From: Nitrospira sp.
GTDB lineage: Bacteria; Nitrospirota; Nitrospiria; Nitrospirales; Nitrospiraceae
Assembly (NCBI GenBank): GCA_018242665.1
Contig: JAFEBL010000006.1
Coordinates: forward strand, 1-64,000
Reading direction: 5' to 3'
DNA: 64,000 bases
The position numbers were made by a program, and so were the translations under genes. Below, in pieces: positions 18,642-23,004 of this stretch. The first letter of the stretch is position 1. Every line of letters starts with the position of its first letter. The notes beneath the pieces are model-generated. The model did no database searches. It saw only the letters and a list, made by a program, of their open reading frames with translations, and was not told where the DNA came from.

Positions 18642-19330
18642 ATGAAACGAGCGAGTCTTCCAATCATCAGCGTCGTCCTGGGAACCCTGCTGGCGCTCCT
18701 GGCTATGGAAACGGTGTTGCCGAGAGCCTGCTGACATACAAGAATGAACCGGGGCACGCCTATTTCGTGGAGGATGGCGAGGGAGCACTGACGCTCCAAC
18801 GCATCGATTATCAGCCGTCATGGTAGCGGCGCATCATTCGCCGGTCAGCCCTGGTACGTTATGTAACGTTGAACACGGATGTGCTTAATTTTCTCTTGAA
18901 GTGGCAACACCTGCCGTTCGGACGACCGTCCAACCACCTCGCATTCGTTGGGAACACCGCGGCCCAGACCGACCCAGTGCGAATTGCAGATGCGCATCGA
19001 GCGATCGACACGTTCCTCGCACGCGTCGGAGGAACCGCCGGTCTCCTACCACAGCGCATCCTGTTCGCAGTGGACGGCATGCGCCCGCACATCTATGATG
19101 CCACCGGGTCCTACTTTGATGTCGTGCGGCGATACTTTATGGAGCAGGCCCGGCGGCGTGGGTTCGAGGTCCTGGACCTGCAACCTCAGTTTATCCAGCA
19201 TTTTGCTCAGTACCAGCACCCGATGAAATTCCCGACCGACAACCATTGGAATTCATTGGGACATGAGGTCGCTGAACAGGCCCTCACTGATTCCGCCCTG
19301 TATGGCTGGTTCCGCAGCCTCGCCCCGTAA
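18642..19330 (+). pseudogene. Decayed SGNH-hydrolase-type gene
   Basis: The pieces of one gene are readable across two frames. From ATG 18642 the sequence encodes a membrane-anchor N-terminus (MKRASLPIISVVLGTLLALL and on to VLPRAC, then a stop). In the next frame it continues as HAYFVEDGEGALTLQRIDY to QPSW, meets TAG at 18824-18826, and then reads on as RRIIRRSALVRYVTLNTDVL through to the C-terminal DNHWNSLGHEVAEQAL. In related cell-surface SGNH proteins the tryptophan is usually followed by a second Trp and basic residues, so TAG probably replaced TGG. The segment with the catalytic GDS motif is missing. I infer a deletion, a frameshift and a nonsense change. The C-terminal 153-residue frame alone could still be translated but would lack the nucleophile. 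Confidence 0.7.
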
Positions 19331-19599
19331 CGCTTCTCCTGATCGCCAACCGATCCGGCCACTCCCTGCCATACCTCGACACACGTGATTAGACAAATTC
19401 CAATCGATACCTGGATTTTGTCTAGTAGCTTTTCTTGCAATCCTTCGTAAGCGAGCGTATACAAACCAGGGTGCATCCCTAGGGCCTTCGTGGTATGCAA
19501 TCGTCATTCACGCGCGAGCGCAGACATGCACACATTCATTCCAAGGATCGGGATGGGGAGGCAGGAGCTACCGGGAGGGTAGAAGGATAGGAGGAGAGA

Positions 19600-19752
19600 G
19601 TGAACGGACAGAACCTCGATTTTAAAACCTCATCATTCAGTGCGCTGGACGTGACCAATCAGAAATTTAAACGTCTGGCATTGGCGTCAGCGATGTTGTT
19701 CCTCGGCGTCGTCGGCTGGCTGATCTATCAAATGATCCAGGGCATCAAGTAA
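19600..19752 (+). CDS. 50-residue putative membrane-anchored protein
   Basis: A GTG start at 19600 is preceded by GGAGGAGAGA, a strong ribosome-binding site. The product has a polar N-terminal half (starting [17 protein letters not shown]) and a basic turn (KFKRL), followed by one hydrophobic helix (about residues 28-46, [18 protein letters not shown]) and a short charged tail. It resembles other single-pass small proteins, but I recognise no family. It lies between the SGNH remnant and the TtuB-like gene, in the same orientation. Confidence 0.6.
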
Positions 19753-19891
19753 CGACTCCCGCCGGTTTCCCAGGCCTCCAGTCGGCCCACCTCGACATCG
19801 AGCGCCCCAGTGTGACCTCCTCTGCCTGCCTGGTTTCCTCAGGACGCCTGCTCCGATTGCAATCCCGCGCGCGTCAGCCGTATCATCGCGC

Positions 19892-20089
19892 ATGCTCGTG
19901 CAACTCAGTCACCCGAATCGTCAGGTCGAGATCAAAGGGCCCAAGCGCACCAAAGACTTGTTGCGCGAACTCAATCTCGTCATGGAAGCGCACTTGGTGA
20001 TTCGGGGTGATGAACTCGTCACGGAAGATGAAATACTGGCCGATGCCGATCAGATTGAGATCCGCCCGGTGATCTCCGGCGGAATCTAG
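19892..20089 (+). CDS. Ubiquitin-like sulfur carrier, TtuB/MoaD/ThiS type
   Basis: The 65-residue beta-grasp protein matches Thermus TtuB in layout: an N-terminal strand, RTKDLLRELNL, then VIRGDELVTEDEILADADQI, ending in VISGGI. TtuB carries a thiocarboxylate on its C-terminal glycine and donates sulfur to the tRNA thiolase TtuA for 2-thioribothymidine at position 54. A TtuA-like gene lies 103 bases downstream, which strongly supports this pairing. Unlike TtuB, the protein ends Gly-Gly-Ile, so the last residue would have to be removed before activation. The ATG at 19892 has no obvious ribosome-binding site. Confidence 0.82.
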   Translation: MLVQLSHPNRQVEIKGPKRTKDLLRELNLVMEAHLVIRGDELVTEDEILADADQIEIRPVISGGI

Positions 20090-20090
20090 C

Positions 20091-20182
20091 CATCAGCGGT
20101 CCGCAATCAGCTCTCAGCCGAGGAATCGATATGACGCGATCCCTTCTGTCGCTGAACGCTGATCGCTGAATACTGACCGCTT
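20091..20182. repeat. Imperfect inverted array of TCAGC-type short repeats
   Basis: The gap between the ttuB-like and ttuA-like genes contains TCAGC words on the left (20093-20118, e.g. ATCAGCTCTCAGC) and the complementary GCTGA words on the right (20150-20182, e.g. GCTGAACGCTGATCGCTGA). They can pair imperfectly around the core at 20119-20149. The seven-base periodicity (GCTGAAC, GCTGATC, GCTGAAT) resembles the hairpin at 11935-12007 in style, though the word differs. It may influence expression of the second gene of the pair. Confidence 0.5.
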
Positions 20183-20192
20183 GTGAGAAGCC

Positions 20193-21134
20193 ATGAACTG
20201 CACAAAATGCCCGACCAGTACCCGAGCGGTGATCGGCCTCCCGCGCCACAATGCCGCCTTCTGTAAAAGCTGCTTCATCACCTTTGTCCACGAACAGGTC
20301 GCCCGGGCGATCAAATCGTTCAAGATGCTGTCGCACGAAGACCGCATTCTTGTGGCAGTGTCCGGCGGCAAAGACAGCTTGGCGCTCTGGCACATTCTCC
20401 TGACCCTCGGCTATCGCGCCGATGCGCTCTACGTCAACCTCGGCATCGGCAGCTATTCCGAGGAATCACACCGAAAAGTCCGGCACTATGCCGACACCGT
20501 TGCCGCCGGTTATGGCGCGAAACTCCTGGTGCATGTCGTCGAGCAAGAAGCCGGGGCCGGCATTCGAGAGTTAGCCACGATTCTCCATCGTCCGACCTGC
20601 TCGACCTGCGGTACCATCAAACGCTATCAGTTCAATCGGGCCGCGATCGAGCAAGAATATGATGTGATGGCCACCGGCCACAATCTCGATGACGAAGCGG
20701 CGCGACTGCTGGGCAACGTGCTGCACTGGCAAAACGACTATTTGGATAAGCAGAGCCCGACCCTGCCGGCGTCGGTGGAAGGATTTGCAAAGAAGGTCAA
20801 ACCCCTCTGTCGGTTGTCCGAGCGGGAAATTGCCGCCTATGCCGTGGTGAATCGCCTCGACTACATCGTTGAAGAATGCCCGATGGCCAAGGGCTCCAAG
20901 ATGATTTTGTATAAGGAAGTGCTCAATCGATTGGAAACGGAATCACCCGGGACCAAGCAGCGCTTCTACTGGGGCTTTCTCGACAAACAAGCCAAGCCGG
21001 ATGCGCCGGCCGAGTCCATGGCGGACAAGGATCAGCGTACCCTTGTGCCCTGCGACTCCTGCGGGCAGCCTACCACCGCCGGCACATGCACCTATTGCAA
21101 GATGATGGCGAAGGCGAAACGATCCGCAGTATGA
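20193..21134 (+). CDS. tRNA 2-thiolation enzyme, TtuA/Ncs6-like
   Basis: It is a 313-residue PP-loop ATPase. The N-terminal zinc site has CTKC and CKSC pairs, the PP-loop is VAVSGGKDSLALW (about residues 51-63), and the catalytic cysteines are in CSTCGTIKRY (about 134) and in the ECPMAKGSK region. ATGHNLDDEAA is the typical adenylation helix, and a C-terminal zinc ribbon follows (CDSCGQPTT, then CTYC). This is the TtuA/TIGR00269 architecture, in which an Fe-S cluster and a sulfur carrier thiolate a tRNA uridine. Which tRNA position is modified (54 as in TtuA, or 34 as in Ncs6) cannot be told from sequence; the adjacent TtuB-like gene favours position 54. Confidence 0.87.
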   Translation: MNCTKCPTSTRAVIGLPRHNAAFCKSCFITFVHEQVARAIKSFKMLSHEDRILVAVSGGKDSLALWHILLTLGYRADALYVNLGIGSYSEESHRKVRHYADTVAAGYGAKLLVHVVEQEAGAGIRELATILHRPTCSTCGTIKRYQFNRAAIEQEYDVMATGHNLDDEAARLLGNVLHWQNDYLDKQSPTLPASVEGFAKKVKPLCRLSEREIAAYAVVNRLDYIVEECPMAKGSKMILYKEVLNRLETESPGTKQRFYWGFLDKQAKPDAPAESMADKDQRTLVPCDSCGQPTTAGTCTYCKMMAKAKRSAV

Positions 21135-21348
21135 TTGCCGCCATGGTGGCATGTATCCAGTTTGATACGCGTTTCCAATCTTCACACGGTTACCTACCCA
21201 ACCTATCCTTGGTCTTCATCGCCTTCTGGTCCTGCACGCAGATGGCCTGGGGCTGTCCGAATACAATCACAAGAGATGGTGGCACGGTGCTTGCCCTACT
21301 CATGAGTGTCCACCACAGCATCTCACCCATCTCCAGCGAGTCCCCGAT

Positions 21349-23004
21349 ATGCCACTCCGGGAAAAGCAGCCCCCTGCCCATCAACCACCCATACGTTCTC
21401 AGGCAGTCCATTCTCCTTTGGAGTCCTCAGAAATATGCCCCGCCAAGACACGTTTCCCACAACTGGGACACATTCTTGACCTAGGGCTCATCAGTGCCGG
21501 GCTCACCGGTCTCGCGTTTTGCCTCTATCTCTCGTTTCGTCATGGTGCGACGTGGGCATACGGGTTGGGCCTGGTCGCCGCGTTCTTGCTTCTGACCTGT
21601 ACATGCCTCTCCGTCGCGCACAAATCCAACCTGGTGCTGGTTGTGCTAGGTCTCCTTATGCCTCTCTATGCCACGGAGGCTGTGTTTTCCTTTCTCGCCC
21701 CCGACGATCTCGACAGGACAGGCACGCCATATATTGCATCCGGCTGGATGCGGTTGAATGCGACGGACAAGCTCGTACGTCAACCGGAAGTCGTGGCTGC
21801 ACGACGAGGAATCCCCTTCGATGCCAGAAACAAAATCGCTGTGGTTCGAGACCTTCGGCGAAGCGGCATTGACGCGTTTCCGTCCATTCCGGTTCCACCG
21901 CTCTTCCGAACAGCAGCAGACAATTCCATGGAACCGGTTCTTTCGATAGAAGGCAGCCCGCTGGTTCCTCTCGGTGGAATCTCCCAAAAGCGAATCGTCC
22001 TGTGCAATGAAACCGGTTTGTATGCCGTCTACTCCAGCGATGAACATGGCCTGAACAACCCCCTTGGCATCTGGAACACCCAAAACATCGATATCGCCGT
22101 GCTCGGCGACTCCTTTATGGAAGGCCAATGTGTCGCCTCGGACCGCACCGTATCGGGAATGATCCGACAGCGGTATGGTGCGACCCTGAACCTCGGCAGA
22201 GCCGGCAATGGCCCCCTACTGGAGCTCGCCGGGATCAGAGAATTCTTGACACATCTTCAGCCACGGATCGTCATCTGGGCGTATTTTGAAGGGAACGATC
22301 TTCAGGATCTATTTGGACGAGAAACGCGCAGTTCCTTGCTTCGCAACTACTTATATCCCGATTTTAGTCAGGGACTCATCGGAAAACAGCGCGAGATTGA
22401 TCGAGCCCTGATTGCCCATACCGAGGCTGTTGAAACGCTCATTGATCAGGGACTCAATCAGCGGGAACCGTTGGAAGTCCGGTTTGAACGGTTTGTCAAA
22501 CTGGGGAATCTCCGCGAACGGATGGACGCGCTCTCTGGCAAACAGCCGCTCTCACTGCTTCAGGGCGAGCGACTGGAATTTCTGAGCGACTCAGACCATG
22601 CAGCACTGTTTCGGCACATTCTCCTCGAGGCACGAAATGCGGTTCAATCGTGGAATGGACAGTTGATCTTCCTCTATCTTCCGCAAGGTTCCCGGTATGG
22701 GAACCAGGCGGTGACCAGTAAGGACCGAGATCGCGTCCTGCAATTGGTGGAACAATTGGGCATCCCGATCATTGACGTCCATCAAGTATTTTCCTCTGCG
22801 CCTGACCCGTTGATGTACTTCCCGTTCCATATTCCAAACGTGGGTGGCGCAGGTCATTATACCGAGCAAGGGTACGAGGTCATCGCTCATCACATCCTTC
22901 GATGCATCGAGGAGTTTGATCTGCTCAACCCGATCACTCACCGAACCACCACGTGTCGCTCCAGAGCGATAGATCTGCAACAAGGCTCTCAGAAGGGACT
23001 GTAG
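21349..23004 (+). CDS. Membrane-anchored SGNH/GDSL-type hydrolase
   Basis: The 551-residue protein has two or three N-terminal hydrophobic helices (about residues 42-120) and a periplasmic SGNH-like domain. Block I is DIAVLGDSFMEGQ (about residue 249) with the nucleophile Ser, an Asn-containing block is YFEGNDLQD (about 306), and the C-terminal catalytic region holds AGHYTEQGYEVIAHHIL, with a candidate His. Proteins of this type act as esterases or O-acetyl transferases on cell-surface polysaccharides. The substrate is unknown. The start is uncertain because no clear ribosome-binding site precedes 21349. It resembles the decayed gene at 18642-19330 and may be its functional counterpart. Confidence 0.75.
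   Translation: MPLREKQPPAHQPPIRSQAVHSPLESSEICPAKTRFPQLGHILDLGLISAGLTGLAFCLYLSFRHGATWAYGLGLVAAFLLLTCTCLSVAHKSNLVLVVLGLLMPLYATEAVFSFLAPDDLDRTGTPYIASGWMRLNATDKLVRQPEVVAARRGIPFDARNKIAVVRDLRRSGIDAFPSIPVPPLFRTAADNSMEPVLSIEGSPLVPLGGISQKRIVLCNETGLYAVYSSDEHGLNNPLGIWNTQNIDIAVLGDSFMEGQCVASDRTVSGMIRQRYGATLNLGRAGNGPLLELAGIREFLTHLQPRIVIWAYFEGNDLQDLFGRETRSSLLRNYLYPDFSQGLIGKQREIDRALIAHTEAVETLIDQGLNQREPLEVRFERFVKLGNLRERMDALSGKQPLSLLQGERLEFLSDSDHAALFRHILLEARNAVQSWNGQLIFLYLPQGSRYGNQAVTSKDRDRVLQLVEQLGIPIIDVHQVFSSAPDPLMYFPFHIPNVGGAGHYTEQGYEVIAHHILRCIEEFDLLNPITHRTTTCRSRAIDLQQGSQKGL

Follow-up and report, generated by a model that had tools for sequence, protein, structure and literature searches.

Sulfur carrier proteins are activated by adenylation of their terminal glycine (PMC6006322, PMC3980101), so a carrier that is encoded with residues beyond its diglycine (a capped carrier) needs to be trimmed beforehand. 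Capped carriers (PtmS2, PtmS3) and a trimming JAMM peptidase (QbsD) are described in PMC6006322, and the locus reported here resembles the QbsE/QbsD and PtmS2-PtmS3/PtmS1 systems in having one or two residues after the GG, a JAMM in the genome and, by the logic described there, trimming before adenylation. In Deinococcus radiodurans, DRJAMM is reported to cleave MoaD-MoaE to the terminal Gly, a cut required for activation (PMC8832034). The s2T54 pathway of Thermus thermophilus (TtuA, TtuB, TtuC) includes a single E1, TtuC, common to TtuB, MoaD and ThiS, and deletion of the JAMM is reported to leave about half of the tRNA thiouridine and to give aberrant TtuB conjugates (PMC3980101). Reviews place s2T54 in thermophiles (PMC6313347, PMC8584467).

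PfJAMM1 of Pyrococcus furiosus, known from a structure with SAMP2, is an archaeal deconjugating enzyme, and SAMP2 in that entry ends at GG. HcyS is reportedly another capped carrier, with HcyD as its JAMM maturase and the same trimming logic. The QbsE, PtmS2 and HcyS carriers serve siderophores, thioacids or methionine, whereas the carrier described here would serve tRNA thiolation, most carriers of its genome are capped at once, and the caps drift. Nitrospira such as N. defluvii, and the family of the present organism generally, are mesophiles.

The genes examined lie in a window (the whole stretch of 64,000 nucleotides that was analysed) from a Nitrospira sp. They had been read in an initial annotation as a TtuB/TtuA-type pair, a reading borne out by sequence and fold matches; the solved proteins closest to them are TtuB and TtuA of Thermus rather than NcsA. 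The T. thermophilus pathway is the nearest in sequence and fold; its E1 is shared between carriers, as the E1s are here by elimination, and a JAMM acts there too. It differs in that the TtuB sequence in the PDB (5ztb_E) ends at GG, whereas the window carrier is capped. Activation here would also require prior cutting by the JAMM, whose part would go beyond deconjugation, and the host is probably not a thermophile. All the parts are of known kinds, and capped carriers and JAMM trimming are already known. A capped carrier of the TtuB type looks new, and so does capping that extends to most carriers in a genome and across much of a phylum; a search of titles and abstracts in the open literature found no report of capped carriers in Nitrospira.

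A capped carrier gene beside a thiolase gene

The pair comprises the following features, all on the forward strand.

19892..20089 (+): TtuB-type beta-grasp sulfur carrier, 65 amino acids, a putative pro-form ending ..RPVISGG-I (profile, PDB sequence and predicted fold)
20078..20083 (+): Gly63-Gly64, the conserved diglycine (VISGG identical in 90/90 related loci)
20084..20086 (+): Ile65, a one-residue C-terminal cap (relatives have 0-19 unconserved residues there)
20090..20192 (+): 103-bp intergenic stretch from the carrier stop to ttuA (degenerate TCAGC/GCTGA-like repeats, by eye)
20193..21134 (+): TtuA-type tRNA 2-thiolase, 313 amino acids (profile and PDB sequence matches)
20361..20378 (+): PP-loop SGGKDS, TtuA residues 57-62 (alignment to T. 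thermophilus TtuA)
20598..20609 (+): C136-x-x-C139 (aligns with Fe-S ligands C130/C133 of T. thermophilus TtuA)
20877..20879 (+): C229 (aligns with C222 of T. thermophilus TtuA)

The carrier ORF (19892-20089) closes with GTG ATC TCC GGC GGA ATC TAG (V I S G G I stop), confirming the VISGGI ending given in the initial annotation; the diglycine is not the encoded C-terminus of this carrier, as Ile follows it. The protein matched Pfam ThiS (PF02597) with 27.8 bits (cut-off 22.5). The last profile position corresponds to residue 64, and Ile65 falls outside it, the protein being one residue longer. A PDB sequence search returned TtuB (5ztb, 3.6e-7), and SAMP2 (5lda_B) was also among the matches. 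The structural model is a beta-grasp (mean pLDDT 92) with 5ztb_E (T. thermophilus TtuB) as its top PDB fold match (TM 0.89, 34% identity), so the predicted fold, the conserved diglycine and the proximity to TtuB all point to a carrier of this type. Its closest relatives are 89-97% identical and mostly from Nitrospira. An Rfam scan of positions 19000-21600 gave zero matches.

The downstream ORF (20193-21134) matched TtuA_LIM_N (34.5 bits, above the cut-off), ATP_bind_3 and NCBIfam TtuA, and aligned with T. thermophilus TtuA over 299 residues (5e-72). The full TtuA cysteine/zinc set attributed to this PP-loop thiolase is all present: the zinc-site cysteines (C3/C6/C24/C27 near the N-terminus and two C-terminal CxxC motifs) are accompanied by C136, C139 and C229. 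The role of C130/C133 as Fe-S ligands in the T. thermophilus enzyme is described in PMC8584467 and PMC3980101. By its residues, the protein combines a LIM-like zinc site, SGGKDS, three Fe-S cysteines and a C-terminal zinc site. It is also nearer to TtuA than to NcsA/Ncs6 or TtcA, as judged from the PDB search (T. thermophilus TtuA, 5gha, 245.7 bits; P. horikoshii TtuA, PH0300, 229.4; NcsA, 6scy, 77.6) and from the NCBIfam scores (TtuA 264.9 bits, NcsA 99.1, TtcA 82.2). Because the score falls short of the 450-bit equivalog cut-off of the TtuA model (NF049949), a model named for Pyrococcus, the protein is filed as TtuA-type and not as an equivalog. K143 aligns with K137, a target site of T. thermophilus TtuA. 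Strong ttuA matches (E below 1e-100) occur in 29/32 genomes of the window's family. The genome also encodes MnmA (s2U34) and TrmFO, which makes m5U54, and has eight rhodanese matches.

Residues following the diglycine in related carriers

Ninety-seven related loci were read, 67 from genome contigs and 30 from 148 genomes of the phylum. A carrier was present in 90, a set that includes some genomes seen twice. VISGG was invariant in 90/90, followed by an immediate stop in 51/90 and by 1-19 further residues in 39/90. The tails share no sequence (I, V, A, T, R, SG, SV, SLG, SPRFTSHE, ELSADSSQLDA and others), and they are also found in single-contig genomes, as SV in Ca. Nitrospira defluvii (L020), ARANSEL (L082/G141) and A (L085/G145). 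The question of whether orthologs keep the extra residue thus has a divided answer: a substantial minority run past the GG, but the others end there and Ile65 itself is not conserved. The position after GG is labile. That Ile65 is a sequencing error, the doubt attached to the initial annotation, was rejected since the other capped loci carry unrelated tails in many genomes, single-contig ones included. A cap that is a conserved functional motif was likewise rejected for the TtuB-like carriers, as their tails differ in both sequence and length.

A tree built from 54 distinct TtuA proteins, with many weak branches, shows at least 14 switches between the capped and the uncapped state. The carrier itself is well conserved, with 26/65 positions invariant across 21 aligned sequences. 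Immediate stops (51/90) are far above the 4-6% expected from local triplets, which points to inertia or to mild selection for an exact GG end; an account by unconstrained tail drift alone is not supported.

In 61/90 loci the carrier gene precedes a co-directional ttuA (gaps of 6-1354 bp). The stretch read around the TtuB-like carrier contains no ttuA in 29/90 loci, for example L040 of Nitrospira moscoviensis, some of these stretches being short. Among these 29 carriers, 27 end exactly at GG, and carriers linked to ttuA are more often capped. By eye, degenerate repeats near the carrier stop (TCAGC/GCTGA here; TTCACGTTTCACG in other genomes) seem to supply several of the tails.

Carriers, E1 enzymes and the JAMM peptidase of the genome

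Capping is not special to the window carrier, a point missed in the initial annotation. PF02597 identified five ThiS/MoaD-type carriers over the cut-off in this genome, and four of them are capped: the window carrier (..GG-I), MoaD (..GG-NQ), ThiS (..GG-AK) and a second ThiS (..GG-R), the SAMP1/CysO-like carrier having an exact GG end. The R cap is constant in the second ThiS; in this genome it is accounted for by an overlap with the cysteine synthase gene, CGGTGA overlapping the GTG start codon of the latter. The capping of most carriers suggests that one common peptidase must trim them before they function.

Both a JAMM-type peptidase and a MoeB/ThiF-like activator, which the initial annotation had proposed to look for elsewhere in the genome, are encoded there, in one operon on contig C15. 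PF00899 matched at three places: two MoeB/ThiF-type E1s belong to this operon, and the third match, on contig C56, is a fusion of E2 and E1 within a CBASS-like locus. The matches to PF14464 were also at three places: the JAMM that ends the C15 operon, which is the one carrier-type JAMM, a JAB in the C56 locus and a RadC-like ORF on contig C41 (CBASS and RadC labels assigned by eye). The fear that no activating enzyme exists is thus unfounded. By elimination, all five carriers would depend on the two C15 E1s, and for the caps a single peptidase stands out as the candidate.

The operon runs in the order second ThiS, cysteine synthase, E1, threonine-synthase-like protein, SAMP1/CysO-like carrier, NIL-domain protein, E1 and JAMM. 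Its JAMM accompanies the capped second ThiS and the uncapped carrier, and the window pair is unlinked to it. E2-like families gave zero matches among the eight operon proteins scanned. The arrangement is of the ThiS/MoaD + E1 + JAB + cysteine synthase type tabulated by Iyer et al. 2006 (PMC1779556, table row 4c), beyond which it has the threonine-synthase-like gene, a second E1 and the NIL-domain gene; neither E1 is fused to a rhodanese.

The C15 peptidase has the JAMM/MPN+ zinc site (E ... H-S/T-H-x(7)-S-x(2)-D) and a JAMM fold, and its residues E25/H105/H107/S115/D118 are identical in 21/21 JAMMs aligned from 21 genomes. Its model (mean pLDDT 81) has PfJAMM1 with SAMP2 (5lda_A, E 3.5e-10) as best fold match, SAMP2 being the protein that also matched the window carrier in sequence. 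The sole NCBIfam match is to the desampylase model (53.8 bits, cut-off 130). As in systems of the QbsE/PtmS2 kind, residues past the GG coincide with a JAMM in the genome that is, to judge by its residues, catalytically complete.

Capped carriers and JAMM peptidases in the Nitrospirota

The survey covered 192 carriers from 58 genomes and 22 TtuB-like carriers from the related-locus set, and 213 with GG were counted among the matches listed. Profile matches stopping before the profile end (about six plus five), one match without GG in G022 and TtuB-like rows already read were left out. The genomes counted as JAMM-bearing numbered 52, and 147/197 of their GG-carriers among the matches listed were capped or run-on, 130 with 1-30 residues and 17 running on further. 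At least one capped carrier occurred in 48/52 of these genomes among the matches listed, and two of the remaining four were read for one carrier only. The ALSGG type of carrier was uncapped in 6/6 JAMM-bearing genomes (among the matches listed).

One family (f8; five genomes with carriers) had 0/7 carriers capped among the matches listed, and its JAMM search gave weak RadC-like matches only. The contrast between JAMM-bearing genomes and f8 (Fisher p 1e-4, by carrier) represents one evolutionary event, because f8 is one clade. In another five genomes, which lacked a strong JAMM match, 8/9 carriers were capped among the matches listed. G118 was considered as a JAMM-less counterexample and rejected, its JAMM being cut by a contig end; the C-terminus at the first bases of contig C17 matches that of G116. 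G018 gave no carrier-type JAMM match and no E1 match above the cut-off; with both missing, the whole operon probably fell into a gap of the assembly. Two further genomes are incomplete, G076 at 74% and G064 at 78%, the latter with a JAB-type match scoring 25.9 bits. In G122, which is 100% complete in 150 contigs, the caps measure 4 and 12 amino acids and the JAMM search gave only a weak RadC-like match; this genome remains an unexplained counterexample to the link between caps and JAMM.

The MoaD-MoaE layout of the D. radiodurans substrate, a carrier-partner fusion reported to be cut after the carrier Gly (PMC8832034), recurs in the Nitrospirota; D. radiodurans has one such carrier, whereas here a genome can have as many as four or five capped carriers. 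MoaD-MoaE run-ons that keep the GG were seen in L149, L164, L182, L184, L191, L198, L201, L205, L208, L215, L217, L226 and L241. Other run-ons with GG at the junction lead into a NIL-domain gene (L131, G131), ThiG (L180, G107) and cysteine synthase (L267, G050). The partners (MoaE, ThiG, cysteine synthase, NIL) were identified by eye from the downstream sequence. A ThiS-family match at G022:C8:17624-17806 (L307), in a JAMM-less genome, ends FPPVARR with no diglycine.

Proposed pathway and alternatives

Judging from the sequences, we think it probable that the window pair is a tRNA-thiolation module, in which a capped pro-carrier is trimmed by a shared JAMM, activated, and used by TtuA on tRNA U54. 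The JAMM of the cysK/thrC/E1 operon would cut after Gly64, releasing Ile65. The exposed diglycine would then be adenylated by one of the two operon E1s and receive sulfur to form a thiocarboxylate, from which TtuA, with its ATP-binding PP-loop and three-Cys Fe-S site, would pass the sulfur to tRNA U54 or to m5U54, the latter supplied by TrmFO. We infer the cleavage, the acting E1 and the tRNA product from this set of genes. Maturation of the other capped carriers (ThiS, second ThiS, MoaD) would fall to this JAMM and these E1s as well. Because the tail would be cut off, the sequence after GG would be free to drift, and overlap bases, intergenic repeats and whole downstream genes could land there.

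For the Nitrospirota at large, there is perhaps an even chance that the JAMM is obligatory for nearly the whole carrier set (tRNA thiolation, Moco, thiamine, cysteine/methionine). The diglycine would then be an internal cleavage site, which would let tails, overlaps with neighbouring genes and fusions of carrier to partner build up, and all carrier-borne sulfur, including that for s2T54 in mesophilic nitrite oxidisers, would be gated by a single zinc enzyme. Nitrite oxidoreductase needs the molybdenum cofactor. If the proposal is true, a single peptidase would act upstream of Moco, thiamine and the thiolation of tRNA in this important nitrifier group. A diglycine at the C-terminus is an unsafe criterion in the annotation of sulfur carriers, and the pair offers a simple test for s2T54 outside thermophiles.

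The cap might instead be removed by a non-JAMM peptidase (a general carboxypeptidase or an unknown enzyme), with a JAMM that, like Mec+ or the desampylases, serves chiefly cysteine/methionine metabolism or deconjugation. The capped carriers of G122, where a JAMM was not found, fit such a scheme, as do the exact GG end of the carrier encoded beside the JAMM in this genome and the sub-cut-off desampylase match (53.8 of 130 bits) that is the only NCBIfam match of the JAMM. We regard it as unlikely, given that caps number 0/7 in JAMM-less f8 and are common elsewhere among the matches listed, and that long run-ons require an endopeptidase cutting after GG, as reported for DRJAMM (PMC8832034). It is hardly probable at all that the carrier is used untrimmed or scarcely used, with TtuA taking free sulfide on its Fe-S cluster, the carrier being lost and its tail irrelevant: a TtuB-free sulfide route has been proposed (PMC8584467) and the tail does drift, but VISGG in 90/90 loci and 26/65 invariant positions (21 sequences) are unlike a decaying gene, and ThiS and MoaD, also capped, presumably must function for thiamine and Moco.

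The substrate, too, could be different. TtuA might modify a site other than U54 (for example U34, like NcsA), in which case the pair would not be an s2T54 system. The mesophily of Nitrospira and the TtuA score under the NCBIfam equivalog cut-off would agree with another site. So would the description of s2T54 from thermophiles (PMC6313347, PMC8584467), but the protein scores 246 and 229 bits against TtuA enzymes and 78 against the U34 enzyme NcsA, a separate MnmA is encoded for s2U34, and TrmFO is encoded for m5U54, which leaves this option a small chance of being right. A carrier that is chiefly a protein modifier, kept inactive by its cap, with a JAMM that activates and deconjugates it and thiolation as a secondary role, is very improbable. 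In T. thermophilus, TtuB is conjugated to TtuA and TtuC and loss of the JAMM gives aberrant conjugates (PMC3980101), the K137 target site has K143 as its aligned counterpart in the window TtuA, and E1 and JAMM share an operon; against these stand the gene order, with the carrier directly or more distantly ahead of a co-directional ttuA both here and in 61/90 loci, and the lack of E2-like families among the eight operon proteins scanned.

Additional genes

The threonine-synthase-like gene of the C15 operon (L007:10765-12087, G000:C15), situated between an E1 and the carrier/NIL-domain genes, encodes an N-terminal zinc-ribbon-like stretch. The substrate of its product may be other than that of ordinary threonine synthase. 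The CBASS-like defence locus on C56 (G000:C56, L008:8596-12895) contains a CD-NTase-like ORF, the E2-E1 fusion and a JAB-TIR-SAVED-like ORF, with domains called by eye except for the PF00899 and PF14464 matches. In the window, SGNH/AlgX-like ORFs lie on both sides of the pair, at 18869-19327 (apparently a fragment) and 21349-23004.
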